A stretch of DNA of 22,989 nt from Ruminococcus sp. UBA3800. GTDB lineage: Bacteria; Bacillota; Clostridia; Oscillospirales; Ruminococcaceae. The position numbers and the translations under genes are program-made. Below the pieces are notes generated by a model. It had not been told where the DNA came from. It ran no database searches and saw only the letters and a list, made by a program, of their open reading frames with translations. Of the stretch, positions 2,022 to 22,515 are shown piece after piece. The stretch is taken from contig DFEO01000061.1 in assembly GCA_002368715.1 (NCBI GenBank), forward strand, positions 1 through 22,989. The letters run 5' to 3'. Numbering within the stretch: position 1 is the first letter of the stretch; each line of letters starts with the position of its first letter.

Positions 2022-2095
2022 GATTGTGATATGTGTTCGCCATGAGCGTTTTTTTGATAAGCTCTGCGGCGGTATTTTGAAAAGAGGTGCTTTGT

Positions 2096-5000
2096 ATGTT
2101 CAAAAAGCATAAGCTGTTATCCGTTTGTCTGCTTTTGGTGTGCATAGCTGTGAACTTCGGCGGCAGATACCTTTCCGATACTATGGAACTGCCTGTCTGG
2201 CTCGATTCCTGCGGAACGGCAATGTCTGCCTATGCACTGGGACCCGTGGTCGGAGCTGTGGTCGGGCTCGTGTCAAATGTTGCATTCGGATTAGTATTCA
2301 ATATGAACGCGCTGTATTATTCGCTGACTGCTGTCGCTGTCGGCTGTATTATCGGTATCAGCGCAAAGAAGGGACGCTTTGATTCTCTGTTTGAGACGAT
2401 AAGCGTAAGCGTTATGCTCACAGTTGCCGCTGTCGTGCTCTCGGTACCGGTCAATTATCTCATAATGAACGGCAGGACAGGAAATGTCTGGGGCGACGGC
2501 GTTATCAACTATCTCTCGGAGAGAAATGCCCCAACGGTGATATGCAGGGTAATGGGACAGTTCTATGTGGACTTTGTTGACAAGGTGCTGCTGCTGGTGG
2601 CGCTGCACGGAGTTATCAGGACAATAAGAAAAATAAAGAAAATAAAAGGAGAGACCGGAGACGGCGAGAGCGAAGGCAGCAGCGCAGTTAAGACCGCAAG
2701 CCTGCTGGCGGCACTTGTGATGTCGGTATCTGTTTTGCAGGCGCTGCCTGTGAGAGCCGAACAGGCAGCCGAGGAGCAGCAGCCTGCCGTTACAGCTTCT
2801 GCCAAGACCTCGGAGTATGACTCCTACATACAGACCCTTTACAGCAAGGCCGAGGGGCTTGAGTGCGGAGAGGCTAATGACATAGCCGAGACCGAGGACG
2901 GAGTTATGTGGATAGGCACCTATGCAGGGCTTTACCGCTATTCCGGAAAAGAGTTTACGATGCTAAGCGACTATTCGACAGTCAAGAACGTGAACAGACT
3001 TTATGTTGACAACGAAGACAGACTGTGGATAGGGACCAATGACAACGGTCTTGCGGTGGCAAAGGACGAAAAGGTCGTGGCTACCCTCGATGAAAAGGGC
3101 GGACTCAGTTCAAGCTCGGTAAGAAGCATATCACGGACCGACGACGGCCTTTATTATGTAGGTACTGCCGGAACACTTATGATACTGGAGATGGACCACA
3201 ACAATAAGATAACCGTTTCCGGCGAGATAAAGGAGATAGGCACAGGTGACTGCGTCGTGTCTCACGGTGAAAGAGCAGCCTGCGTTAATTCGGGCGGTGC
3301 GATCTTCCTTATGAAGGATAAGCAGATCACCGACTCGATCTATCCCGAGAGCGAAGAGGACGTTGACTTTGCAAGCTGTAATTTCGTTGACGATCTGCTT
3401 TATGCGGGAATGAGCGACAACACCATAAGAGTGTATGATGTTTCGAGCGACAAGCTGGTGGAAAAACAGGTGCTCGATATCGGTGACCTTTCCTTTGTTA
3501 ATTCGCTGGAACAGTCGGGAGATAAGGTGTTTGTGTGCGCCGACAACGGAGTGGGCTATTTTGATGCCAAGGGTGAGTTCTTTAAGATAAACACCAACTC
3601 TTTCAACAACTCGATAGACAACTTCCAGATAGACTATCAGGGCAACCTGTGGTTCACATCTTCAAGGCTTGGTCTTCTCAAGCTCTCGAAGTCGGTGTTC
3701 ACCGATATCTTCACCACCTACGGCATACCCAGCGCCGTTGTCAATGCGGTGGAGCGCTCCGACGGAAAGCTTTATTTCGGAACGGACAACGGCCTTATCA
3801 TACTGGATGAGGGCACGTCAAATACAATTCAGAACGAGCTGACAGAAACACTTGACGGTGTGCGTGTGCGCTGTGTAAAGACCGACAAAAACGGCAACCT
3901 CTGGGTGAGCAGCTATGGCAAGGGACTTGTTGCCTGCACACCGGATGGCGAGATAAAAGTATTCGACTCTGCCGCAGGCGCATCAGGAAACTGGGCAAGA
4001 GTAACGGTAATGATGAATGACGGCACCGTGGCCTCTGCGAGCGACACGGGCATATCCTTTATCAAGGACCTCGAGATCACTAACAACATAATCTACGGCG
4101 ACGACTTTACTTCATCTGCTGTGCTGTGCCTGCTGGAGGGCGAGGACGGCCAGCTGTGGGCAGGAAGCGACGGCGAAGGCATATACATCCTTGAAGACGG
4201 CAAGGTGACGGGCCACCTGACAAGAGAAAACGGCCTTACATCCGGCGTTATACTCAGGATAACGAAGTGCTCGCTGGGCGGCTATTTCGCTGTGACGAGC
4301 AACGGCCTGTGCTTCATCGACAAAGACCACAGCATAAAGGCTATTTCAAACTTCCCTTACTCAAACAACTTTGATATCTGCGAGGACGGCAACGGCAATA
4401 TGTTCGTTCTGGGAAGCGCAGGCATCTATGTGGTCGACGAGAAGAGCCTGCTTGATAACAAAAAGGATATCAGCTTTGACAAGCTCGATGCAAAGCGTGG
4501 CCTTACCGCATCCATAACAGCAAACTCCTGGAACTATACAGGCGAAGACGGCAATATATATCTCAGCTGCGACACGGGCGCATTTATGTTCGATATGAAC
4601 AACTATAAAAACAGCGCCGAGCTTTTCAAGATGAAGCTTTCGCATATGAAGACAGACAAAAAAAATGTGACCATGGAAAGCGGCTCGGTCATTAACGTTG
4701 CAAGAAACGTAAAGAGGATAGAGCTGTATCCCGAGGTGATAAACTATTCGATAGAGGACCCCACCATAAGCTATAAGCTGGAGGGCTTCGATACCGAGCC
4801 CACTGTGCTCTCGAACAGCGAGCTTGACGTTATCACCTATACGAACCTGCCTGTGGGAGAATACACCTTCAGCCTGAAGGTGCTCGACACCAACGGAAAA
4901 ACTGTCGATGAGATGCGAGTTAAGCTTATAAAGGACAAGGAGATCTACGACAGGACATATTTTACCTTCTATATGCTCAGCGTTGCTGTGCTGGCTATCG

Positions 5001-5686
5001 TCTGGCTGACCTGGTATATAGCAAAAAGACAGACACAGAAGGTGCTCGAACGCCAGAGAGCTCAGCTGGAGCTCGCAGAGAAACAGGTACAGATGGGCAA
5101 CGAGACCATTATGGCAATAGCAAAGACGGTGGACGCCAAAGACGGCAACACCAGCCGACACTCCTTCCGTGTTTCCGAATATGCTGTTATGATGGCCAAG
5201 GAGCTTGGCTGGAGCCACCAGGAATGCGAGAACCTGAGAAAGGCAGCTCTGCTGCATGATATCGGAAAGATAGGTATCCCCGACAGCGTGCTGAACAAGC
5301 CTTCACGTCTGACCGATGAGGAATACAAGGTGATGAAGACCCACGTTACGAGAGGTGCAGAAATACTCAAGGACTTCACGCTTGTGGACAATGTTGTGGA
5401 CGGCGCCCTTTATCACCACGAGCGCTATGACGGAAGCGGCTATAATTCGGGGCTCAAGGGCGAAGAGATACCTGTTTACGGCAGACTGATCGGCGTTGCG
5501 GATGCCTTTGATGCGATGACCGCAAACAGAGTATACCGCAAGCAGCTGGATATGGACTATGTAAGAAACGAGTTTGCCGAAGGACGAGGCAAGCAATTCG
5601 ACCCGAAGATGGTGGACGTTCTGTTGAAGCTTATCGACAACGGCACCATAGATGTGGAAAAGCTCTATAACAAAAAAGAAGACTAA
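2096..5686 (+). CDS. Membrane sensor: ECF-S-like domain, beta-propeller, Y_Y_Y and HD-GYP phosphodiesterase domain
   Basis: A 1196-residue fusion. Residues 5-175 form about five membrane spans resembling ECF-transporter S components (LDSCGTAMSAYALGPVVGA, then NVAFGL). A basic linker leads to a further span (about 199-220). Residues about 240-840 carry repeated propeller blades such as DGVMWIGTYAGLYRY and DRLWIGTNDNGL, followed by a Y_Y_Y-type domain (about 845-950). A last span (955-976) and a short coiled stretch lead to the HD-GYP domain (about 1008-1180). Metal ligands are present: HD at 1054-1055, HH at 1107-1108 and D in ADAFDAMT. HD-GYP domains normally hydrolyse cyclic di-GMP, but the GYP triplet here reads GYN (1115-1117). 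The ATG at 2096 has AAGAGG 8 bases upstream; a GTG at 2087 lies within that site. I infer that the external propeller senses a ligand, perhaps a carbohydrate, and controls the internal enzyme. Confidence 0.9.
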   Translation: MFKKHKLLSVCLLLVCIAVNFGGRYLSDTMELPVWLDSCGTAMSAYALGPVVGAVVGLVSNVAFGLVFNMNALYYSLTAVAVGCIIGISAKKGRFDSLFETISVSVMLTVAAVVLSVPVNYLIMNGRTGNVWGDGVINYLSERNAPTVICRVMGQFYVDFVDKVLLLVALHGVIRTIRKIKKIKGETGDGESEGSSAVKTASLLAALVMSVSVLQALPVRAEQAAEEQQPAVTASAKTSEYDSYIQTLYSKAEGLECGEANDIAETEDGVMWIGTYAGLYRYSGKEFTMLSDYSTVKNVNRLYVDNEDRLWIGTNDNGLAVAKDEKVVATLDEKGGLSSSSVRSISRTDDGLYYVGTAGTLMILEMDHNNKITVSGEIKEIGTGDCVVSHGERAACVNSGGAIFLMKDKQITDSIYPESEEDVDFASCNFVDDLLYAGMSDNTIRVYDVSSDKLVEKQVLDIGDLSFVNSLEQSGDKVFVCADNGVGYFDAKGEFFKINTNSFNNSIDNFQIDYQGNLWFTSSRLGLLKLSKSVFTDIFTTYGIPSAVVNAVERSDGKLYFGTDNGLIILDEGTSNTIQNELTETLDGVRVRCVKTDKNGNLWVSSYGKGLVACTPDGEIKVFDSAAGASGNWARVTVMMNDGTVASASDTGISFIKDLEITNNIIYGDDFTSSAVLCLLEGEDGQLWAGSDGEGIYILEDGKVTGHLTRENGLTSGVILRITKCSLGGYFAVTSNGLCFIDKDHSIKAISNFPYSNNFDICEDGNGNMFVLGSAGIYVVDEKSLLDNKKDISFDKLDAKRGLTASITANSWNYTGEDGNIYLSCDTGAFMFDMNNYKNSAELFKMKLSHMKTDKKNVTMESGSVINVARNVKRIELYPEVINYSIEDPTISYKLEGFDTEPTVLSNSELDVITYTNLPVGEYTFSLKVLDTNGKTVDEMRVKLIKDKEIYDRTYFTFYMLSVAVLAIVWLTWYIAKRQTQKVLERQRAQLELAEKQVQMGNETIMAIAKTVDAKDGNTSRHSFRVSEYAVMMAKELGWSHQECENLRKAALLHDIGKIGIPDSVLNKPSRLTDEEYKVMKTHVTRGAEILKDFTLVDNVVDGALYHHERYDGSGYNSGLKGEEIPVYGRLIGVADAFDAMTANRVYRKQLDMDYVRNEFAEGRGKQFDPKMVDVLLKLIDNGTIDVEKLYNKKED

Positions 5687-7014: not shown

Positions 7015-8265
7015 TTGAGACGAAAAAAGCGGTTTGTGAGGTGCCCCGGCTGCGGCAGCAAGATCTTTGCCACAAGAACGGTGTGCCCGGGCTGCGGAAG
7101 ACAGATGACCGAGGCTGTGAACAGGAAAAAGCGAAAAAAAGCGCTTCTTGTCGGGACTGCGCTGGCTTGTGTGCTGGTGGTCGCTATCATCCTCGGAGCA
7201 AGGTATATCATAAAACGCCGCACCGAGATATCTCTGGACGTTCATATAAAGGCGGACGCCGGGATATACGGTGTAACAGGCAGCTCGGGGTTTGAAAGGC
7301 TGAGCACGGAGCAGAAGAAAAAGGAGCTTGAAGGCTGCTTTAAAAAGCTTAAAGAAGATGACCTTGTGGACAGCTTTGAGTATAACGAGAAAGAGCAGAT
7401 ATATGAGTTTACCTATGAGGACGGTTCACTCGGGGCGGCGGCTCTTTGCAGCTTTGACAAGCAGCTGTGTGCAATAGACAAAAGCTATATGACCGAGGAG
7501 AGCGACGGCTCTGTGGTCATAGACAGTACGCTTGACATCGGAGCGCTTGGGTATAGCTATGAAAAAGCGCCAAAGGCAAAGGTGTTCGGCTTCTATGCAA
7601 CGGATGAACTTAAAAAATGGGCAGAAAAGCGCTCTGAGATATGGGAGCGAAACGGGATGAAGACCGAGCTTGACACCAAGGTGACAGCCAAAAAGCTCGA
7701 AAGCGGGCTTTCGGGAGCTGACCTTGTCATCCTTGACGGCCACGGCTTTGGTTTTCGCAAGGACACTGCGCTGTGCTTTGGCGAGAGTGCCACAAAGACA
7801 GCGCTCGGGAAGTATTCAAAGGAGCTGCGCTCGGGACAGATGATAGAGCTTATAACGCCCGAGGGCAAATTTCTCTGCGTTATGCCGGGGCTGTTCAGGA
7901 CGCATTATGCACAGGGGGCGCTCGACAAAACAGTTATCGTTCTGGGGGCCTGCTGCTCGGGCGACACCCAAGAGCCTGCAAAGGCGATCCGTGAGCTTGG
8001 CGCAAAGGCAGCGGTGGCTGTGAACGGACGCATCTTCGGAAGCTATCTTGCACAGTTTGAGGATGCCTTTGTCTATTCCCTGCTCTGCGGCGACACCGTG
8101 GGGGATGCTGTGGATTTTGCAAAAAGTGTTTACGGAGCTGACGACGCCGAATGGTCAAGGACATTTGACGGCACGCCTGATGCTTCAAGAAAAGGCGAAA
8201 AAGGCAGCGTTTTTGCTGTAAGCGGCGCAGACAAGACACTAGTCGTTCTTAAAAGTATTTCATAA
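7015..8265 (+). CDS. Membrane-anchored zinc-ribbon protein with a caspase/CHAT-like peptidase domain
   Basis: A 416-residue protein starting at TTG; GGAGG at 7000-7004 gives a proper spacing, and no ATG or GTG exists in frame upstream. The N-terminus has a zinc ribbon (C10-P-G-C13 and C24-P-G-C27), then a basic patch, one membrane span (43-62) and about 350 further residues. The C-terminal half has a hydrophobic strand ending DG-H243-G, then about 70 residues later VIVLGA-C313-C-S-G-D. After that come ELGAKAAVAVNGRIFGSY and LLCGDTVGDAVDFAKSVYG, which resemble the end of CHAT domains. His-Gly plus Ala-Cys after strands is the clan CD cysteine peptidase signature; C313 would be the nucleophile. 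With the ribbon inside the cell, the peptidase domain would face outward. The peptidase assignment rests on motifs seen by eye. It follows the serine hydrolase gene in one transcript. Confidence 0.68.
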   Translation: MRRKKRFVRCPGCGSKIFATRTVCPGCGRQMTEAVNRKKRKKALLVGTALACVLVVAIILGARYIIKRRTEISLDVHIKADAGIYGVTGSSGFERLSTEQKKKELEGCFKKLKEDDLVDSFEYNEKEQIYEFTYEDGSLGAAALCSFDKQLCAIDKSYMTEESDGSVVIDSTLDIGALGYSYEKAPKAKVFGFYATDELKKWAEKRSEIWERNGMKTELDTKVTAKKLESGLSGADLVILDGHGFGFRKDTALCFGESATKTALGKYSKELRSGQMIELITPEGKFLCVMPGLFRTHYAQGALDKTVIVLGACCSGDTQEPAKAIRELGAKAAVAVNGRIFGSYLAQFEDAFVYSLLCGDTVGDAVDFAKSVYGADDAEWSRTFDGTPDASRKGEKGSVFAVSGADKTLVVLKSIS

Positions 8266-13936: not shown

Positions 13937-16012
13937 ATGCCATTATTAAATCTGCTTTTGCGACCTATCTCCAGATCAAAGCTCTTCGGCATAGTATATA
14001 GTGTTTTGCTTATGCTCCTGTTTTGCGCATCGTCAGTTTTTATGGCCGTTTTCTTTGATCTTGCGCTGCCTGCGGTCATCATTGGGCTCGTGCTTCTTTG
14101 CTTCTTGTTTTACAGGATAAAGCTTGATACCATAATAATAAAGCTTCCTGTGATATACCATATTATAGCTTTACTCGCATTCGCTTATATGGCAAAAGGG
14201 TTTTATCGCTTTACCGATGGGACCGAACTTTTTATGATCGTTTCTTCAGCTGCCTGCGGAATGGTCTTTTTCTCGCTTATCGAGATAGTATCATCATCTT
14301 TACTCAGTTTTCTGTCTGACAAAGCACATCCGGAAAACTTTCCAATGGCTCTTGCTTCGGTCTTTCCATTGCTGTTTACTGTTATCATATACATTCCTTC
14401 GGAAACGTATTTTATAAACTCAAAGGATCTCCTTTTTGTATTCTTTGATTTTGCACCGTATATTATTATCAAAGCGGTCGTATTTACCCTGATAACATCC
14501 GTTGCTGCCTGCGCACTGAGCAGCAAAGCGTTCCGGGTCTTTTCTGCTTTAACAACAGGACTCACCTTGTGTGTGTACTGTCAGTATATTTTTATGAACA
14601 GTGACCTCCCGTCATTTCTCGGCACACCTCCGGATTGGAGTTCTATGCACGCTAAGATCGTGATAAACCTCGTTATCTGGATCCTGCTGCTTCTGCTGCC
14701 GTTAGCTTTTATTCTTCTGTCCGGGCGAATAAAGGCTATCAGCGGCAATAAGATCGCCTGTAACGCCCATGTGCTCGCAGCTCTGTTCATAGGCGGGATA
14801 CAGCTCATCTCACTTGTGACCCTGATCATAACGTCAGACCGCAGTCTTTCAAAACATGAAAAATATATGCTCGATAACAAAGAGCAGTTCGTTGTTTCCG
14901 GGAACAAAAATGTGATCACCTTTATCCTGGACGCATCGGACAGGCATTATTTTGATGATGTTTATGAGCAGGAACCTGAAAGATTTGACTTTCTTAATGA
15001 CTTTACATATTATAACAATGCCTGCATGATGTATGATGCAACATATCTGTCGATCCCACAGATGCTCTCAGGTGCCGTCGAACCTCCGGAATATGACATC
15101 AATACCTGGGTCAGGGAGTGCTGGTCGTCTGAATGCTGCTCCTCCTTTTATTCAAGACTTCACGATGCAGACTATAAAGTGAACGTGTTCGGAGATTTTG
15201 CATATGACTACAATGCCTTTTCTGAAAGCTTTGATAACTGTGAGTTTCAGACAGAGGATAGTATAAGAGTCGATTACGAAGATCTGTATACTAATCTTAA
15301 TGCACTAGCGGCTTATAGGTATATGCCAATGCTCTTAAAGTCCTCGTTTCTTAATGATGTTGAAGAACTGGACCGCACTATCGTTTATTCAAACGAGTGC
15401 ATCATGGATAACAAGCAGTATCTTTCGTCGCTGAAGCTGGAAAAAGCGAAGAACGATAAGAATTATTTTATCGTTGAACATCTGAACGGAACTCACGCAT
15501 TCTCCGATGGGACCGTTACTGAGCGTGTATATGACTGTCTGGATATATTAAAGGAGTATACGGATCAGCTGAAAGAGATGGGGCTTTATGACTCCTCTGT
15601 TATTATAATAACAGGAGATCACGGCGAACACTATGGGAAGGACAATGTTCCTATCTGGTATATCAAAGGCACAAACGAACACCACGACAGGATGCAGACA
15701 TCAAGTGCGCCGATACATCATACAGATTATCTGGCTACCTGTATCGATGCTGCCGGATTAAAACAAAGCGGCGACGACGATCTTTTCGGGCGGTCGATCT
15801 TTGATATCCCGGAGAACGAAAAGAGAAAGCGGCTCGTTTTTCAGCGCTATGGCTTTGAGTATGAGGGTGACATCGACTTTAAGCGATGTGTCGATCCGGG
15901 TCACAAAGGAGCCGCCTATGGGTATTATTTCACGGGAGACAGAGAGGATCTTGTCGAAAGAGAAAACGCAGGACCTCCGGATATTGTTCTTGAACTGAAC
16001 GATATGTATTGA
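13937..16012 (+). CDS. Alkaline-phosphatase-superfamily membrane phosphotransferase (LTA synthase/EptA-like)
   Basis: A 691-residue protein. The first 310 or so residues hold about nine or ten membrane spans; the rest is an external domain of the sulfatase/alkaline-phosphatase fold. Metal and catalytic residues can be followed: D332 in FILDASD, the likely nucleophile T369 in DATYLSIPQM, D561-H562 in ITGDHGEHYG, and H594/H595 in IHHTDYL. A Thr nucleophile and an ATxxSxP stretch fit phosphoethanolamine or phosphoglycerol transferases better than true sulfatases, which use CxPxR or SxPxR. I infer that it adds a phospho-alcohol group to a surface glycan or makes a polyol-phosphate chain from lipid donors. 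The ATG at 13937 has GGAAG 8 bases before it; the TTG at 13922 is less likely. It heads a cluster with teichoic-acid-like and choline genes. Confidence 0.78.
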   Translation: MPLLNLLLRPISRSKLFGIVYSVLLMLLFCASSVFMAVFFDLALPAVIIGLVLLCFLFYRIKLDTIIIKLPVIYHIIALLAFAYMAKGFYRFTDGTELFMIVSSAACGMVFFSLIEIVSSSLLSFLSDKAHPENFPMALASVFPLLFTVIIYIPSETYFINSKDLLFVFFDFAPYIIIKAVVFTLITSVAACALSSKAFRVFSALTTGLTLCVYCQYIFMNSDLPSFLGTPPDWSSMHAKIVINLVIWILLLLLPLAFILLSGRIKAISGNKIACNAHVLAALFIGGIQLISLVTLIITSDRSLSKHEKYMLDNKEQFVVSGNKNVITFILDASDRHYFDDVYEQEPERFDFLNDFTYYNNACMMYDATYLSIPQMLSGAVEPPEYDINTWVRECWSSECCSSFYSRLHDADYKVNVFGDFAYDYNAFSESFDNCEFQTEDSIRVDYEDLYTNLNALAAYRYMPMLLKSSFLNDVEELDRTIVYSNECIMDNKQYLSSLKLEKAKNDKNYFIVEHLNGTHAFSDGTVTERVYDCLDILKEYTDQLKEMGLYDSSVIIITGDHGEHYGKDNVPIWYIKGTNEHHDRMQTSSAPIHHTDYLATCIDAAGLKQSGDDDLFGRSIFDIPENEKRKRLVFQRYGFEYEGDIDFKRCVDPGHKGAAYGYYFTGDREDLVERENAGPPDIVLELNDMY

Positions 16013-16049: not shown

Positions 16050-16352
16050 ATGAAAAAAACAGCTTTTAAATTGCTTCGTTTTGCTTTTTATGCCACCGGT
16101 GCCGCTGTTATTATGACGCCTACGGCCTATGCCTACATAGACCCGGCAACTACGAGCTATGTGATCCAGATAATTGCCGGAATAGTCATAGCCTGCGGAG
16201 CCGGTATCGGGATCTTCTGGAACAGGATAAGAAGAAAGCTGCGTAAGAAAGACGGTCCGACGGACAAGGCAGCACCCGAGAGAGAAACACAGGGCGGTGT
16301 TTTAACAGCAGAGGATCTTCTCGGAGATGACGATCCCGAGAAAAACAGTTAG
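16050..16352 (+). CDS. Small membrane protein with YIDPATTS motif
   Basis: A 100-residue protein. It has a signal-like N-terminus (KKTAFKLLRFAFY...), a likely cut after TAYA near 28, then YIDPATTSYVIQ, one membrane span, a very basic stretch (RIRRKLRKK) and an acidic tail. Similar small proteins with a YIDPGTGS-type start followed by one span occur beside surface-glycan genes; their function is not known to me. AAAGGTG lies about 11 bases upstream. The following insertase fusion starts 8 bases after the stop, so the two are likely cotranslated; it could be a partner or substrate of that protein. Confidence 0.75.
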   Translation: MKKTAFKLLRFAFYATGAAVIMTPTAYAYIDPATTSYVIQIIAGIVIACGAGIGIFWNRIRRKLRKKDGPTDKAAPERETQGGVLTAEDLLGDDDPEKNS

Positions 16353-16360
16353 GAAAACAA

Positions 16361-18397
16361 ATGTCATATATCATCAATTTTCTGTCCTGGATACTTGGCT
16401 ATGTGATGCGGGGCTGTTACTCGCTTATCGGAAACTATGGCTTGTCTATAATCCTGTTCACACTATTGACTAAGGTCATACTGTTTCCGCTCAGCATCAT
16501 CACTCAGAAAAATTCCATTAAGATGGTGAATCTTCAGCCAAAACTGGATGAGCTAAAAATTAAATATATTGACAACAAGGATAAGTATACTGACGAACAG
16601 GTAGCGCTTTACAAAAAATACAAGTATAATCCGTTTCTGGATATTCTTCCGCTGCTGCTGCAGATACCTATTATTCTTGGACTTATCGGTGTTATATACA
16701 GGCCGCTGAGCTATGTGCTTTCAGTCGGGAGCGAGACCGTGAGCAAGCTCAACAGCTGGCTTGTCAATATAGTCGGGATCTCGGACGCAGGCAGCACCTA
16801 TCAGATCACTATTGCCGAAAAGCTCAGGTCCGGCCTAAAGCCGCCGACAGGTGTCAGCAGAAGCGACATAGACTGTATTCTCGGGTTTGATATGTCTTTT
16901 CTTGGTATCGACCTTGGGAAGACCCCTTCGTTCAAGGGAGATCTTATTCTTCTGATCATCCCCCTCCTGGCCGGTTTGAGCGCCTGGCTGCTGTGCTTTG
17001 CACAGAACAGACTCAATGTTTTGCAGATCGCTCAGGGAAAGCTGAACAGGATCATCACGACTGTGATAATGGTGGCTTTCTCGACCTATTTTGCGTGCAT
17101 CGTTCCTTGCGGAGTCGGGCTTTACTGGATATTCGGAAATCTTTTTGCTATCTTACTGATGGCTGTGACAAACCTTGTGATACCTCCAAAAAAATACGTC
17201 GATTACGACAAGCTTTTAAGAATGAAACAGCAGAAAAAGATCAAGGAGGAAGAATACAGAAAGCACAGAAAAAGAGAGGCTGCTGATTATAAGCGCTTTT
17301 TCTCGAACAAGGATATGCAGCTGATGTTCTACTCCGAATCGAACGGCTTTTTCAAGTATTTCAAGGGTATGATCGGCTATATCTGTGAGCATTCGGATAT
17401 TGTGATACATTATGTTACAAGTGATCCAAACGACAATATCTTTTCTGATGAACGGCCGCAGATAAAACCGTATTATATCGCAAGCGACAGATACCTTATA
17501 CCTCTGTTCATGAAGCTGGAATGCGATATGTGCGTTATGACAATGCCCGATCTTGAAAAGTATCATATAAAGAGATCGCGTGTAAGAAAGGATATAGAAT
17601 ATGTTTTTGCCTGCCACGGTATAGGAAGCATATCGCTGTACCGCAAAGGTGCCCTTGATTGGTTTGACACTATCCTATGTCCCGGAAAAGATCAGTTTGA
17701 TGAGATCAGGGCGTATGAAAAGCTTTATTCAACACAGGAAAAGCTTATTGTTGAAACAGGGTATCCTCTTATCGATTCAATGATCGAGGAATATGAGAGC
17801 CTGGAGCATCCGGAAAATGAAAAGCCGCAGATAATGATAGCTCCATCCTGGCAGCCTGAAAATATAATCGAGCTTTGCGCCGAAAAGCTGCTTGATGAGC
17901 TTTCAAAGTGTGACTATAAGATCATACTTCGGCCTCACCCTCAGCAGGTAAGGCATGAGCCTGAACGTTTTGAGCAGCTGAAGGAAAAATACTCGTCATT
18001 TGATAACATCGAGATACAAACAGATTTTTCCGTGACAAATTCAGTGATGGAATCTGACATTCTGATAACGGACTGGTCAGACATATCCTGGGAATTCGCC
18101 TTTGTGACCAAGCGCCCTGTTGTTTATATCGATACACCTATGAAGATAATGAATACTGATTACGAACAGATAAACATCGACCCGATCAACAGATCGCTCA
18201 GACCGCTGATAGGTAAAGTGGTGGCTCTTGATGACCTTGACAGCATCAGCGAGATCATTGAAAAGATGCTTTCAAACAAGGAGCAATACAGCAGGTCTAT
18301 CGACAATGTGTTCCACGAACATATATACAACATAGGAAAAAGCGCTGACCTTTGCGGAAGATACATAATCAGATCAATAAACAAAAAGAGCAGATAA
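16361..18397 (+). CDS. YidC/Oxa1 insertase domain fused to TagB/TagF-like glycerophosphotransferase
   Basis: A 678-residue fusion with no interruption of the frame. Residues 1-285 are a complete YidC/Oxa1-type domain: GLSIILFTLLTKVILFPL, the charged hairpin around LQPKLDELKIKYI, KYNPFLDILPLLLQIPI, MSFLGIDLGKTPSF, and CGVGLYWIFGNLF. The groove Arg of Gram-positive YidC is Lys here (K38). A basic coiled linker follows (about 285-313). Residues 315-678 match CDP-glycerol:poly(glycerophosphate) glycerophosphotransferases: FACHGIGS with H419, ETGYPLID, LRPHP with H526, and LITDWSDISWEFAF. Both histidines used by TagF are thus present. TagB/TagF enzymes add glycerol phosphate from CDP-glycerol to a lipid-linked chain on the inner membrane face. 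The insertase half would tether the enzyme and may help insert a partner protein; that is inference. Confidence 0.88.
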   Translation: MSYIINFLSWILGYVMRGCYSLIGNYGLSIILFTLLTKVILFPLSIITQKNSIKMVNLQPKLDELKIKYIDNKDKYTDEQVALYKKYKYNPFLDILPLLLQIPIILGLIGVIYRPLSYVLSVGSETVSKLNSWLVNIVGISDAGSTYQITIAEKLRSGLKPPTGVSRSDIDCILGFDMSFLGIDLGKTPSFKGDLILLIIPLLAGLSAWLLCFAQNRLNVLQIAQGKLNRIITTVIMVAFSTYFACIVPCGVGLYWIFGNLFAILLMAVTNLVIPPKKYVDYDKLLRMKQQKKIKEEEYRKHRKREAADYKRFFSNKDMQLMFYSESNGFFKYFKGMIGYICEHSDIVIHYVTSDPNDNIFSDERPQIKPYYIASDRYLIPLFMKLECDMCVMTMPDLEKYHIKRSRVRKDIEYVFACHGIGSISLYRKGALDWFDTILCPGKDQFDEIRAYEKLYSTQEKLIVETGYPLIDSMIEEYESLEHPENEKPQIMIAPSWQPENIIELCAEKLLDELSKCDYKIILRPHPQQVRHEPERFEQLKEKYSSFDNIEIQTDFSVTNSVMESDILITDWSDISWEFAFVTKRPVVYIDTPMKIMNTDYEQINIDPINRSLRPLIGKVVALDDLDSISEIIEKMLSNKEQYSRSIDNVFHEHIYNIGKSADLCGRYIIRSINKKSR

Positions 18398-18405
18398 CAG
18401 CATAT

Positions 18406-18435
18406 CGTCTGCCGTTTTTTGCGGCAGACGGTTTT
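18406..18435 (+). terminator. Stem-loop terminator or attenuator inside the cluster
   Basis: CGTCTGCCG pairs perfectly with CGGCAGACG around a T6-G loop, followed by GTTTT. It lies 8 bases after the stop of the insertase fusion and 39 bases before the next start, where no convincing promoter is visible. Confidence 0.75.
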
Positions 18436-18474: not shown

Positions 18475-20232
18475 ATGAACATTGTAGAAGCAGACATATT
18501 GAAAATCATAAAGAAATATGGCTATACAGACCAAAGAAGCCTTTCCTCATCAAGCGGTCATTCTCTGGGTACAGTCAACTGCGCTGTCAAAAAGCTTGTC
18601 AGTGACGGGTATCTTGACTGCGACATGATGCTTACTGATAAGGCAAGTATGCTGCTTGAACGATCAGCCCCGAAAAACGCAGTGATACTTGCTGCCGGAT
18701 ACGGGACCCGTATGATACCGATAAATTACTCTATACCAAAGGCTCTTCTTGAGGTGAACAATGAGCCGCTGATCGAGCGGCAGATAAAACAGCTTAATAA
18801 GGCAGGAATTTTTGACATCTCAATAGTTGTAGGATACCTTAAAGAAGCGATGGAGTATCTTATCGATAAATACGGGGTCAGGCTGATAGTCAATACCGAG
18901 TATTATTCAAAGAATAATCTCCATTCATTGCGCCTTGCTGAAAACATCATTTCAGACACATATATCGTTCCCTGCGATATATGGTGTGAGAATGATCCTT
19001 TTGACAAGTATGAGCTGTATTCATGGTATACCGTAAGTGACAGGAAAGACGCATCAAGCTCAGTCCGTATAAACAGAAAGCACGAGCTTATCAAAGCTGG
19101 CTCAGAAAACGCAGACGCTATGGTAGGTATCGCATATATAACAAAAGAAGATTCTGTCATATTACGACAGCAGCTGGCTGCCCTTGATGACTGCCCCGAC
19201 AACAATGACCTTTTCTGGGAATCGGCACTAATGCAGGACAATAAAATGATCATTCCGGGCAAGCTCGTCAGTTCAAAAGAGTTTATTGAAATAAACACCT
19301 ACGAACAGCTTCAGGAGCTTGACAGCTGTTCTGCGACCCTGCATTCAAAAACGCTTGACAGTCTTGCAAAAATAATGCACGCAAAGCCGAAGGATATAAC
19401 AGGCATACAGCTTCTGAAAAAAGGGATGACCAATCGTTCGTTTGTCTTTTGCTGCTTTGGGAAAAAATACATTATGCGCATCCCCGGAGAAGGCACGAGC
19501 AAACTGATAAACAGGGCTCAGGAAGCCGATGTCTATAAGACTATCTCGGGCAAAGGTCTTTGCGATGACGTTGTGTTCATAGATCCGCAGACAGGCTACA
19601 AGATCACAGAATATATAGAGGGAGCCAGGACCTGCGACCCGAATGATAAGCACGACCTTATAAGGTGTATGAAAAAACTGAGAAGCTTTCACGATCTGAA
19701 GCTCACTGTCAGCCACACATTTGATATCTTCGGGCAGATAAGGTTTTATCAGGAGCTCTGGGGTGGTGCGCCGTCTGTTTTCAAGGACCATACTGAAACT
19801 ACACACTGTGTTTTCTCTTTAAGAAGCTATATAGAATCTCACGCCGAGCCTTTTGTCCTTACACACATTGACGCAGTTGCTGATAACTTTATATTCAGCA
19901 CTCAAAGCGACGGGACCGAACAGCTCCAGCTGACCGACTGGGAATATGCAGGTATGCAGGACCCACATATAGATATTGCGATGTTTTGCATTTACAGCCT
20001 GTTTAACTTAAAACAAACTGATGAACTGATAGATATTTATTTTGAAGGCCGATGCCCAGAAGAAACCAGGATAAAGATCTACTGCTATATATCTGTCTGC
20101 GGACTGCTATGGAGCAACTGGTGCGAGTATAAGCGCCACCTCGGTGTGGAATTCGGCGAGTACTCATTAAAGCAATATCGCTATGCAAAGGACTATTACA
20201 GACTTGCGAAGGAGTTGATGGACAATGAATGA
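18475..20232 (+). CDS. HTH / LicC-like cytidylyltransferase / LicA-like choline kinase fusion
   Basis: A 585-residue three-domain protein. Residues 1-62 form a winged-helix-like module (ADILKIIKKYG ... LGTVNCAVKKLVSDGYL). Residues 67-285 are a nucleotidyltransferase with NAVILAAGYGTRMIPI, KALLEVNNEPLIERQI and the metal-binding region IVPCDIW. Residues 290-585 are a choline/aminoglycoside-kinase-like domain with NRSFVF, the Brenner motif THIDAVADNF (H464, D466, N471) and LTDWEYAG (D488). Together these would phosphorylate choline and activate it as CDP-choline, as LicA and LicC do in phosphocholine decoration of surface polymers. The substrate could also be ethanolamine. The ATG at 18475 with AAGGTG 6 bases upstream is chosen; an upstream in-frame start at 18352 overlaps the previous gene and the terminator. 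It overlaps the next gene by 8 bases. Confidence 0.87.
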   Translation: MNIVEADILKIIKKYGYTDQRSLSSSSGHSLGTVNCAVKKLVSDGYLDCDMMLTDKASMLLERSAPKNAVILAAGYGTRMIPINYSIPKALLEVNNEPLIERQIKQLNKAGIFDISIVVGYLKEAMEYLIDKYGVRLIVNTEYYSKNNLHSLRLAENIISDTYIVPCDIWCENDPFDKYELYSWYTVSDRKDASSSVRINRKHELIKAGSENADAMVGIAYITKEDSVILRQQLAALDDCPDNNDLFWESALMQDNKMIIPGKLVSSKEFIEINTYEQLQELDSCSATLHSKTLDSLAKIMHAKPKDITGIQLLKKGMTNRSFVFCCFGKKYIMRIPGEGTSKLINRAQEADVYKTISGKGLCDDVVFIDPQTGYKITEYIEGARTCDPNDKHDLIRCMKKLRSFHDLKLTVSHTFDIFGQIRFYQELWGGAPSVFKDHTETTHCVFSLRSYIESHAEPFVLTHIDAVADNFIFSTQSDGTEQLQLTDWEYAGMQDPHIDIAMFCIYSLFNLKQTDELIDIYFEGRCPEETRIKIYCYISVCGLLWSNWCEYKRHLGVEFGEYSLKQYRYAKDYYRLAKELMDNE

Positions 20233-20944
20233 GATCAAAAAAGCCGTAATTATGGCAGCAGGAAAAGGAGAACGTCTGCGCCCAATAACTTTGACCACAC
20301 CAAAGCCTTTGATCTGTGTGAACGGTAAATGCATGATCGAGACCGTTATAAACGGCTTGATGGAAAACGAGATTTCTGATATATGTGTTGTTGTTGGTCA
20401 TCTCGGCGAGCAGTTTACGAAGCTTAAACAAAAATATCCCGACCTGACGCTGATACAAAACCGATATTATGAAAGCTGCAACAATATTTCCTCCTTGTAT
20501 TCAGCCAAGGAATTTCTCGATGACTGTGTGATGCTGATAGACGGAGATCAAATGATAAATGACCCGTCTATACTCGGCAGAAGCTTTGACCGCTCGGGAT
20601 ACACGGCTGCTTGGACAGACAGCTACACGAATGAATGGCTCATGACACTGACAGATGATATAGTTTCCGGCTGCTCCCGAAACGGCGGAAAGCACGGCTG
20701 GCAGCTGTACGGTGTTTCACGCTGGACAAAGGAAGATGCAAAGAAATTAAGAACACACACGATCCTTGAGTTTGAGACTAAACAGAACAAGGATATTTAT
20801 TGGGACGATATACCTATGTTTTTGCACAGCAGCGAATATGAGCTGGGGATATCAAAAATCAAAGGAAATGAGATAAGAGAGATCGACACGATCGCAGAGC
20901 TTGCAGCAGCCGATCCAAAATACTCGGAATATATAAAGGACTAA
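20225..20944 (+). CDS. licC: Second LicC-like nucleotidyltransferase
   Basis: A 239-residue single-domain sugar-phosphate/choline-phosphate nucleotidyltransferase. The nucleotide-binding signature is AVIMAAGKGERLRPIT, followed by TPKPLICVNGKCMIE, VVVGHLGEQF and the metal-binding Asp in MLIDGDQMI; WDDIPMF near the end may supply the second metal ligand. The length and the NISSLYSAKEFL stretch fit LicC-type CTP:phosphocholine cytidylyltransferases. It overlaps the preceding kinase fusion by 8 bases, with GAAGGAG 10 bases before the ATG, and the transporter gene starts 5 bases after its stop. Why two cytidylyltransferases occur side by side is unclear; they may have different substrates, for example choline phosphate and ethanolamine or glycerol phosphate. 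Confidence 0.82.
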   Translation: MNEIKKAVIMAAGKGERLRPITLTTPKPLICVNGKCMIETVINGLMENEISDICVVVGHLGEQFTKLKQKYPDLTLIQNRYYESCNNISSLYSAKEFLDDCVMLIDGDQMINDPSILGRSFDRSGYTAAWTDSYTNEWLMTLTDDIVSGCSRNGGKHGWQLYGVSRWTKEDAKKLRTHTILEFETKQNKDIYWDDIPMFLHSSEYELGISKIKGNEIREIDTIAELAAADPKYSEYIKD

Positions 20945-20949
20945 CTGAT

Positions 20950-22515
20950 ATGAATAATGAACGAACGAATAAAAACAGGATCGACTGGATCATAACATTT
21001 GTTCCGCTCACCGCAGTGATCGGGATATCCATACTGTTTTTTGTATTCCCTAAGGGAGCAAATCATGTTTTGTCTAAAATAAGGTTTTTCTTTGGCGATA
21101 CGATGGGCGCATACTATCTGGTAATAGGACTGGGCTTCTTGATCCTTTCGGTATTGCTCTCGGTATCAAAATGCGGAGATATAGTTCTTGGGGCGCCGAA
21201 CGAAAAACCTAAATACTCCTTTTTTTCATGGGGAGCAATGATGTTCACCTGCGGTCTGGCAGCAGATATCCTCTTCTACTCTTTCTCAGAATGGGTGATG
21301 TATTCTGCCGAACCACATATCGAACAGATGGGGGGTGTGCAGGACTGGGCAGAGACCTATGCACTTTTTCACTGGAGCTTTATCCCATGGTCGTTTTACC
21401 TCGTACTGGCTGCCGCATTCGGCTTTATGATACACGTCAGAAAAAGAACAAGACAACGATACTCTGAAGCCTGCCGTCCTCTTCTTGGAAAGCGCACTGA
21501 CGGGATAACCGGAAGGCTGATCGACCTGCTAGCTGTGTTTGCACTGATCGCAGGCACAGCCACTACCTTCAGTGTTGCGACACCTCTTATGGCAAGTATG
21601 ATATCAAAGCTGTTCGGGATAACTCTCAGCAGACGTGCGGTAACTGTTATCATCCTGCTTATCACCTGTGCTGTATACACTTACTCACTGATGCATGGAC
21701 TTAAAGGGATAAGCATCCTTGCAAAGGTGTGCATATATCTTTTCTTCGGGCTGCTTCTTTTTGTTCTGCTTTTCGGAGGACAGACAAAGTATATAGTAGA
21801 AACGGGCCTTTCATCGTTTGGAAAAATGATAGGAAACTTTTTTGAATTATCGACTTATACTGACCCGACACGAAAAGACAGCTTTGCACAAAACTGGACT
21901 ATATACTACTGGGCATACTGGATGGTCTGGTGCGTTGCAGCTCCATTCTTTATAGGAAGCATCTCCCGTGGAAGAACAGTGCGCCAGCTGATCCTGGGAG
22001 GTTACATATTTGGAACAGGCTCAACTCTTGTAAGTTTCTTTGTTCTCGGCGGCGAAGGAATGGGGATGCAGATGAGCGGCAAGGCAGAACTGATCGAAGC
22101 ATACGGTAAGAATGGAGATATTTACGAGATCATAATAGATCTGATAGATAAAATGCCGTTCTCAACACTTATAATTATCCTTGTGCTGCTGACAATGATC
22201 GCCTTTTATGCGACATCGTTCGACTCGATAGCGCTGATAGCCTCGTGTTACAGCAGCAGAAAGCTTAACAGCGATGAACATCCGCATAAAGCGATCCAGC
22301 TCTTGTGGTGCATTCTTCTGATACTTCTGCCAATAGCTCTTGTCTTTTCTGAAAGCTCGATGAGCAATTTACAGACCGTCAGCATAGTGGCCGCATTCCC
22401 GATAGGTATCGTTATGGTTTTGATCGCAGCAAGCTTTATAAAAGATTCAAAAAACTATTTGAAACATAAAGGACCAGGTTTATCAACTCCCGAAAACCAA
22501 CAGGAAACAGAGTGA
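20950..22515 (+). CDS. BCCT-family choline/betaine/carnitine-type transporter
   Basis: A 521-residue membrane protein with about twelve spans, the usual size for the family. The BCCT signature is clear in IYYWAYWMVWCVAAPFFIG followed by SISRGRTVRQLILG, with the tryptophan-rich substrate box, and TSFDSIALIAS lies in a late span. The early glycine loop that reads GMGIG in sodium-coupled betaine carriers such as BetP is GLAAD here, so the coupling may differ. Given the kinase and cytidylyltransferases directly upstream, I infer it supplies choline, taking the place that LicB has in Haemophilus. AAAGGA lies 9 bases before the ATG. It is the last gene of the cluster. Confidence 0.9.
   Translation: MNNERTNKNRIDWIITFVPLTAVIGISILFFVFPKGANHVLSKIRFFFGDTMGAYYLVIGLGFLILSVLLSVSKCGDIVLGAPNEKPKYSFFSWGAMMFTCGLAADILFYSFSEWVMYSAEPHIEQMGGVQDWAETYALFHWSFIPWSFYLVLAAAFGFMIHVRKRTRQRYSEACRPLLGKRTDGITGRLIDLLAVFALIAGTATTFSVATPLMASMISKLFGITLSRRAVTVIILLITCAVYTYSLMHGLKGISILAKVCIYLFFGLLLFVLLFGGQTKYIVETGLSSFGKMIGNFFELSTYTDPTRKDSFAQNWTIYYWAYWMVWCVAAPFFIGSISRGRTVRQLILGGYIFGTGSTLVSFFVLGGEGMGMQMSGKAELIEAYGKNGDIYEIIIDLIDKMPFSTLIIILVLLTMIAFYATSFDSIALIASCYSSRKLNSDEHPHKAIQLLWCILLILLPIALVFSESSMSNLQTVSIVAAFPIGIVMVLIAASFIKDSKNYLKHKGPGLSTPENQQETE

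Follow-up and report, generated by a model that had tools for sequence, protein, structure and literature searches.

A YidC-transferase fusion protein of Ruminococcus and the four-part membrane set to which it belongs

Why would a membrane-protein insertase be joined, in a single polypeptide, to an enzyme resembling those that build teichoic acids? The question is raised by an open frame at 16361..18397 of contig DFEO01000061.1 from Ruminococcus sp. UBA3800 (assembly GCA_002368715.1), a stretch of 22,989 nucleotides that is called the window here. An earlier note on this DNA had described the frame as a complete YidC domain followed by a TagB/TagF-like glycerophosphotransferase, and had offered a membrane anchor, an aid to the translocation of lipid-linked polymers or a dedicated insertase as its possible role. 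In our analysis, the YidC fold looks less like a general protein inserter than like an integral component of machinery that tailors the cell surface.

A genuine fusion in one reading frame

The fusion and its parts are arranged in the window as follows.

16361..18397, plus strand: YidC-GlyP fusion, 678 amino acids in one open frame
16361..17206, plus strand: YidC domain of the fusion, residues 1-282, with five membrane spans and a hairpin at residues 49-94
16472..16474, plus strand: K38, the positively charged groove residue of the YidC domain, placed by alignment
17288..18394, plus strand: GlyP domain, a TagF-like transferase of the GT-B (glycosyltransferase B) fold, residues 310-678, predicted to be cytosolic

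The single frame and the key motifs of both halves were borne out. The YidC domain scored 127.5 bits against PF02096 (gathering cut-off, 35) and possesses the YidC fold, with its five-span core and cytosolic hairpin, while the GlyP domain matched part of the PF04464 profile at 54.6 bits (gathering cut-off, 22.1) and possesses the GT-B fold with both histidine motifs. A database search returned homologues with the same architecture: both domains were present in all of the best 120 matches to the fusion, the window's own protein counted, and they were joined in 23/23 loci of the kind that we call form A (YidC-GlyP). The presumed catalytic residues were invariant across 56 aligned form-A fusions. 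These results confirm that the fusion is genuine, and an assembly artefact or frameshift at about base 17220 was rejected on the evidence of the fused homologues. The window's own genome is spread over 175 contigs at 80% completeness, and many of the compared loci come from metagenome-assembled genomes. Among the papers that full-text searches of the open-licence literature listed, none evidently pointed to a YidC-GlyP or a YidC-sulfatase-type fusion. One form-A frame (L081:8556-10964) carries about 130 added N-terminal residues ahead of its YidC domain, a region with no Pfam match.

The four-part set and its gene fusions

There is good support for placing the fusion in a set of four parts: the YidC domain, GlyP and two proteins termed Sulf and YIDP. 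The latter two are encoded upstream of the fusion in the window.

13937..16012, plus strand: Sulf, a membrane protein of the alkaline-phosphatase superfamily, with about nine predicted spans and then an extracellular LtaS/EptA-like domain
16050..16352, plus strand: YIDP, 100 amino acids, identified by profile and alignment; no Pfam family

Our own profiles of YIDP, YidC, GlyP and Sulf were run on all frames of the collected loci. Some of the domain assignments were compared with Pfam, which has no model for YIDP, and the E-values are optimistic because the profiles were iterated on the same loci. Loci were counted once each, leaving aside L101-L103 (the contigs of L018, L007 and L008), L088 (which overlaps L087) and the repeats L022-L028.

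The same four parts were found in various fusions, namely YidC-GlyP, YIDP-GlyP, YidC-Sulf and YIDP-Sulf. YIDP was present at 20/23 distinct form-A loci and Sulf at 14/23, with the order Sulf, YIDP, YidC-GlyP in 11 of the 14, and at one form-A locus (L083) a YIDP-Sulf fusion stood next to YidC-GlyP. At the loci that we call form B, YIDP-GlyP (17 genes) adjoined YidC-Sulf; both were present in 16/16 distinct loci from 11 genomes, 10 of which fall in two families that also carry form A (f51 and f66) and one in the window's family (L054). Among the 120 matches listed for YIDP-GlyP, YIDP lay inside the first 70 residues in 119. The YidC-Sulf family gave 4904 matches at E <= 1e-5 among 7999 scored, and of the best 120 of these all carried PF02096 and most carried PF00884. 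The GlyP domains of the window and form B share 27% identity over 354 columns; other PF04464 proteins of the window's genome match the fusion barely (best E, 2e-5). A Foldseek search with the form-B YidC-Sulf model matched PbgA, LtaP, LtaS, MCR-1, EptA and many sulfatases. YidC was absent among the top 50 matches listed, which says little because the YidC part of the model has a block pLDDT (predicted local distance difference test) of 52-87, and the form-B genes are assigned by their PF02096 scores of 75-94 bits. Two proteins that form a single chain in some genomes and two chains in others usually cooperate (the Rosetta-stone argument), and since related loci fuse YidC to an extracellular LtaS-like enzyme, we take the YidC domain to belong to a phosphotransfer machine.

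The occurrence of the parts across genomes also speaks for the set. Within the genus, window-type Sulf was found in 5/6 fusion-bearing genomes, the window's included, and in 0/13 fusion-free ones, and YIDP in 5/6 and 0/7, respectively, these being the numbers examined for each among 23 fusion-free genomes in all. Where the fusion stands alone (L007 and L008, in G008 and G013), a Sulf-YIDP pair was located on another contig. Sulf lies about 10 kb from the fusion in G017 and on another contig in G006, in both cases next to a gene for phosphoenolpyruvate (PEP) mutase. This search for Sulf elsewhere in the genome covered loci other than L011, L012, L013 and L084.

The window's Sulf matched PF00884 weakly (23.1 bits, under the cut-off of 25) and missed the NCBIfam LtaS equivalog NF053595 (18.1 of 970 bits). 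Residues D337, T374, H525, D566 and H567, numbered on the 696-amino-acid frame from 13922 with its ATG at 13937, are conserved in at least 90% of form-A and at least 85% of form-B proteins (43 sequences); by analogy, T374 would be the threonine nucleophile and D337, D566 and H567 the metal ligands. YIDP has a signal-like N-terminus, an outside tip (YIDPATTSY), one span and a cytosolic tail that is basic and then acidic, terminating in a VLTAEDLL-type motif, and A3, Y29, D31, P32 and I55 are invariant in an alignment of 18 sequences. At three loci (L014, L019 and L020), YIDP and the fusion are preceded by three Sulf-like genes, as if one inner unit were served by several outer transferases.

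Head-group genes beside the set

Three further genes follow the fusion in the window.

18475..20232, plus strand: LicCA, a triple fusion of helix-turn-helix (HTH) domain, LicC-like cytidylyltransferase and choline kinase, from Pfam
20225..20944, plus strand: a second LicC-like nucleotidyltransferase, from Pfam
20950..22515, plus strand: transporter of the BCCT family, choline/betaine type (PF02028, 427 bits)

The start of LicCA was placed at 18475, preceded by AAGAAGGTG, in preference to 18352. Its choline kinase domain matched PF01633 at 58.2 bits and is accompanied by nucleoside triphosphate (NTP) transferase domains, with substrates assigned by family; the HTH is a winged-helix DNA-binding domain, and the same triple architecture also occurs in L095. 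The gaps along Sulf, YIDP, fusion, LicCA, LicC and BCCT are 37, 8, 77, -8 and 5 bases. Promoter and terminator scans returned sites at about the chance number, so the operon structure rests on this spacing and on ribosome-binding sites. A perfect hairpin, CGTCTGCCG/CGGCAGACG, was seen by eye at 18406-18430, between the fusion's stop and LicCA, and was not reported by the terminator scan.

Within the stretch read at each locus, head-group genes adjoined the set in 7/23 form-A and 7/16 form-B loci. The genes counted were choline kinase, LicC-like cytidylyltransferase, PEP mutase, phosphonopyruvate-decarboxylase-like, aminotransferase-fused cytidylyltransferase and LicD; the form-B figure takes in L090 and L100, which have no more than a LicC-like gene and a decarboxylase-like gene, respectively. 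The BCCT, LicC and LicC-ChoK genes of the form-A window recur at the form-B locus L095. In one sample of Clostridia, PEP mutase (E <= 1e-40) was found in 10/14 set-bearing genomes (GlyP match at E <= 1e-15) and 26/377 others, with a Fisher p of 1e-8, a value that overstates independence because the tested genomes are related. PEP mutase or full-length LicCA was present in 18/21 set genomes, and by hand count 9/15 PEP mutases and 5/10 LicCA genes lay at most about 22 kb from a set gene; for the PEP mutases the probability would be 7e-9 given a chance of 5%, a figure that was assumed. The set is thus linked to genes for making cytidine diphosphate (CDP)-choline or cytidine monophosphate (CMP)-aminoethylphosphonate. 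The earlier label of a teichoic or glycerophosphate enzyme is unsupported as stated: a CDP-glycerol synthase (TIGR01518) exceeded the curated cut-off in 1/21 set genomes and gave matches of 80-125 bits in a further 4, the window's own genome yielded none at its 80% completeness, and the genes beside many sets make CDP-choline or CMP-aminoethylphosphonate instead.

Several other genes were recorded. Between form-B genes, L087:10961-12976 encodes a 671-amino-acid protein in which an NTP transferase and a second cytidylyltransferase-like domain are joined to PEP mutase. The window's genome has a second phosphopolymer locus (L056, on its contig C1), with LicD, an IspD-like enzyme (named by eye) and two other PF04464 proteins. 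Farther upstream in the window, 2087-5686 encodes a 1199-amino-acid protein with an N-terminus like that of energy-coupling factor (ECF) transporters, sensor propellers, Y_Y_Y and an HD_5 domain, and 7015-8265 a 416-amino-acid protein with an N-terminal zinc-ribbon-like CxxC motif and one hydrophobic stretch (both by eye) and no Pfam match.

A candidate tailoring machine and its rivals

Our reading, which we consider about evenly poised between right and wrong, is that a membrane machine of four parts decorates a surface polymer with zwitterionic phospho-groups, probably phosphocholine in the window and aminoethylphosphonate in relatives, and that the fusion forms the machine's inner half. Choline would be imported by the BCCT transporter and converted to CDP-choline by LicCA and LicC, judging from family membership. 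On the inner face, GlyP, whose fold and motifs are present, would take the phospho-group off its CDP or CMP carrier and load it on a lipid of the membrane or on a lipid-linked glycan. The YidC domain and the single-span YIDP, which gene fusions show to belong with the enzymes, would form the membrane core between them, through which the polar head could reach the outer face. There Sulf, with its conserved threonine at the nucleophile position, would hand the group to the surface polymer.

The orientation of the enzymes is consistent with such a relay. GlyP should face the cytosol, since it comes after the fifth span and basic loops put that end inside. LtaS, EptA and PbgA act outside the cell, and Sulf should face outward because its catalytic domain comes after nine predicted spans and its fold relatives act there. 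A complex with YidC and YIDP between the enzymes is the simplest reading, as YidC and YIDP both have one form in which their fusion partner is the inner enzyme and another in which it is the outer one. The available text of PMC10491306 reports that YidC of Escherichia coli, Oxa1 and Get1 scramble lipids in liposomes, and for this reason the YidC core could let a lipid bearing the phospho-group cross. PptA-type enzymes, relatives of phosphoethanolamine transferases that add phosphocholine on the outside, possibly from a lipid donor (PMC10434233, as far as its available text goes), may serve as precedent for an outer phosphocholine transferase. More tentatively, and with doubt prevailing, we propose that a domain of the YidC/Oxa1 fold has given up inserting proteins and, joined by YIDP as a partner subunit, acts as the translocating core of a head-group relay running from inner GlyP through the groove to the outer LtaS-like transferase. 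The interpretation in the earlier note is supported in part: its anchor and translocation roles are both favored, with the qualification that a mere anchor for a cytosolic enzyme fails to explain the YidC-Sulf fusions.

Several observations weigh against our reading, among them the relatedness behind the Fisher values. A head-group gene lay inside the stretch read at only 14/39 loci, and form-B loci come from few genomes, with 4/16 from one (G117). No PEP mutase was found in the window's own, incomplete genome. At the thresholds applied, PEP mutase and full-length LicCA were both missing from three set genomes (G037, G194 and G215), though a cytidylyltransferase-aminotransferase fusion is present at L099 of G215. 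In G007 the fusion is present, and YIDP and window-type Sulf were undetected in the profile search. The domain arrangement in the predicted structure is uncertain (predicted template modelling score, pTM, 0.60). GlyP may also act otherwise, because LicD, a known phosphocholine transferase, is encoded at another site in the window's genome and within three of the related loci.

The rival that we rate highest is one that we would sooner doubt than accept: GlyP may be an ordinary teichoic-type polymerase that polymerizes glycerol- or ribitol-phosphate from CDP-glycerol or CDP-ribitol, with choline or phosphonate added later by LicD and the polymer exported and anchored by YidC, YIDP and Sulf. The scarcity of CDP-glycerol synthase among the set genomes argues against this, as does the window locus, which combines choline import, a kinase and two cytidylyltransferases with no LicD among its genes, the genome's one LicD match being on contig C1.

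A serious rival, if a rather unlikely one, is that the borrowed YidC fold serves as a scaffold only, docking YIDP and gathering the inner and outer enzymes, while its groove conducts nothing and an unlinked flippase does the flipping. Fusions alone demonstrate association and not transport, and in L016 the set has a MatE-family protein as its neighbor. On the other hand, drift would be expected of a plain anchor, and the form-A YidC core without its outer loop equals or exceeds the enzyme domain in conservation, with 82% mean column identity and 53/168 columns invariant, compared with 74% and 83/369 for GlyP (56 proteins each). Between the same four genomes, fusion YidC domains were 82-93% and ordinary YidC proteins 58-89% identical in three pairs; in the three pairs with G017 the values were 55-57% and 55-73%, which again counts against us. 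Because these last pairs are equally or less alike, we claim purifying selection on the fusion's YidC domain, as estimated from these identities, and not unusual conservation.

The groove bears on the same question. A positive residue (lysine or arginine) was found in 23/23 form-A, 0/20 form-B and 16/19 ordinary YidC rows, counted by eye on distinct rows after setting aside three form-A copies, two ordinary duplicates and one truncated form-B piece. Its loss in form B would suit a scaffold and its retention in form A would not. Polar residues S207, Q215, N219 and N260, in or beside spans, are invariant in form A. Three ordinary-sized YidC rows of one family (HK_L107, HK_L108 and HK_L109) have asparagine at the groove's positive position. 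According to the available text of PMC8920935 (2022), the groove charge occurs in all homologues and serves groove hydrophilicity, and what counts in E. coli YidC is polarity, not charge. Form B and three ordinary YidC proteins here depart from that universality, and the form-B charge may be dispensable. Since 3/19 ordinary YidC proteins lack the charge and, in the text of that source, polarity can replace it, we do not use it against insertase function. In a tree, the form-A (23 rows) and form-B (20 rows) YidC domains lay apart, each as one clade. A single clade of both was not rejected by the approximately unbiased (AU) test (p 0.077); given also the length of the form-B branch (2.88), no conclusion is drawn on their common origin.

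The third proposal of the earlier note, a dedicated insertase, is kept as an improbable rival, the evidence favoring anchor and translocation. The YidC domain would insert and fold the set's own YIDP and Sulf, coupling their assembly to the enzyme. It passes PF02096 and has the hairpin, the lysine and the five spans. Form-B YIDP starts with a tail of about 9 residues, followed by one span, without a signal peptide, and short-tailed single-span proteins of this type are handled by YidC. However, in form B the domain is joined to Sulf itself and its groove charge is lost, and to our knowledge insertases are rarely tied covalently to a substrate. Furthermore, a second, ordinary-sized YidC in an open frame of 349-540 amino acids was present in 21/21 set-bearing genomes. 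In the window's genome it lies on contig C170 between rnpA-like and jag-like genes (names by eye), and the idea that the fusion is the cell's only YidC was rejected. Finally, a chance fusion, artefactual or decayed and functionless, is scarcely conceivable, with nothing found in its favor and with the fused homologues and their invariant, presumably catalytic residues refuting it.

If our reading is correct, natural fusions on both sides of the membrane connect the chemistry of surface polymers with an ancient superfamily of insertases. The question of lipid movement by insertases in vivo would then become directly testable, because the enzymes that produce and consume the presumed cargo lipid would be covalently joined to the insertase fold.

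Among known systems, the YidC domain is nearest to the YidC/Oxa1/Alb3 insertases (Bacillus halodurans YidC, 3wo7). It differs in being fused to a GT-B transferase or an LtaS-like enzyme, in lying outside the rnpA-like/jag-like neighborhood of the genome's other YidC and in its outer loop of 79 residues; form B also lacks the positive groove residue. GlyP shares about 19% identity over the aligned part with the TagF/TarL CDP-polyol phosphotransferases (PF04464), and the GlyP half alone had no match among PDB sequences at E <= 0.01. In contrast to TagF/TarL, it is held to the membrane by YidC or YIDP, and its neighbors supply CDP-choline or CMP-aminoethylphosphonate. Sulf resembles LtaS, EptA and PbgA in its threonine, its Asp-His metal ligands and the form-B Foldseek matches; it differs in scoring under the LtaS equivalog cut-off and in being fused to YidC or YIDP in relatives.

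As in the Lic pathway of phosphocholine decoration (LicABC-LicD and TacF; PMC13385700), choline kinase and cytidylyltransferases are present, here adjoining the set. Unlike that pathway, the window has a BCCT importer and YidC, YIDP and LtaS-like parts with no LicD in the locus, and no TacF-like flippase was found among the scanned genes of the window locus; the set is a candidate for a phosphocholine route that works without LicD in bacteria common in gut and rumen. As in Pnt phosphonate tailoring, PEP mutase, cytidylyltransferase-aminotransferase fusions and decarboxylase-like genes adjoin related sets. PMC6697681, in its available text, defines the phosphonate cytidylyltransferase PntC and describes the same kinds of activating enzymes, and its main text mentions no YidC, insertase or glycerophosphotransferase. 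It calls the later steps enigmatic, and it is for these late steps of phosphonate tailoring that the four-part set offers a candidate.
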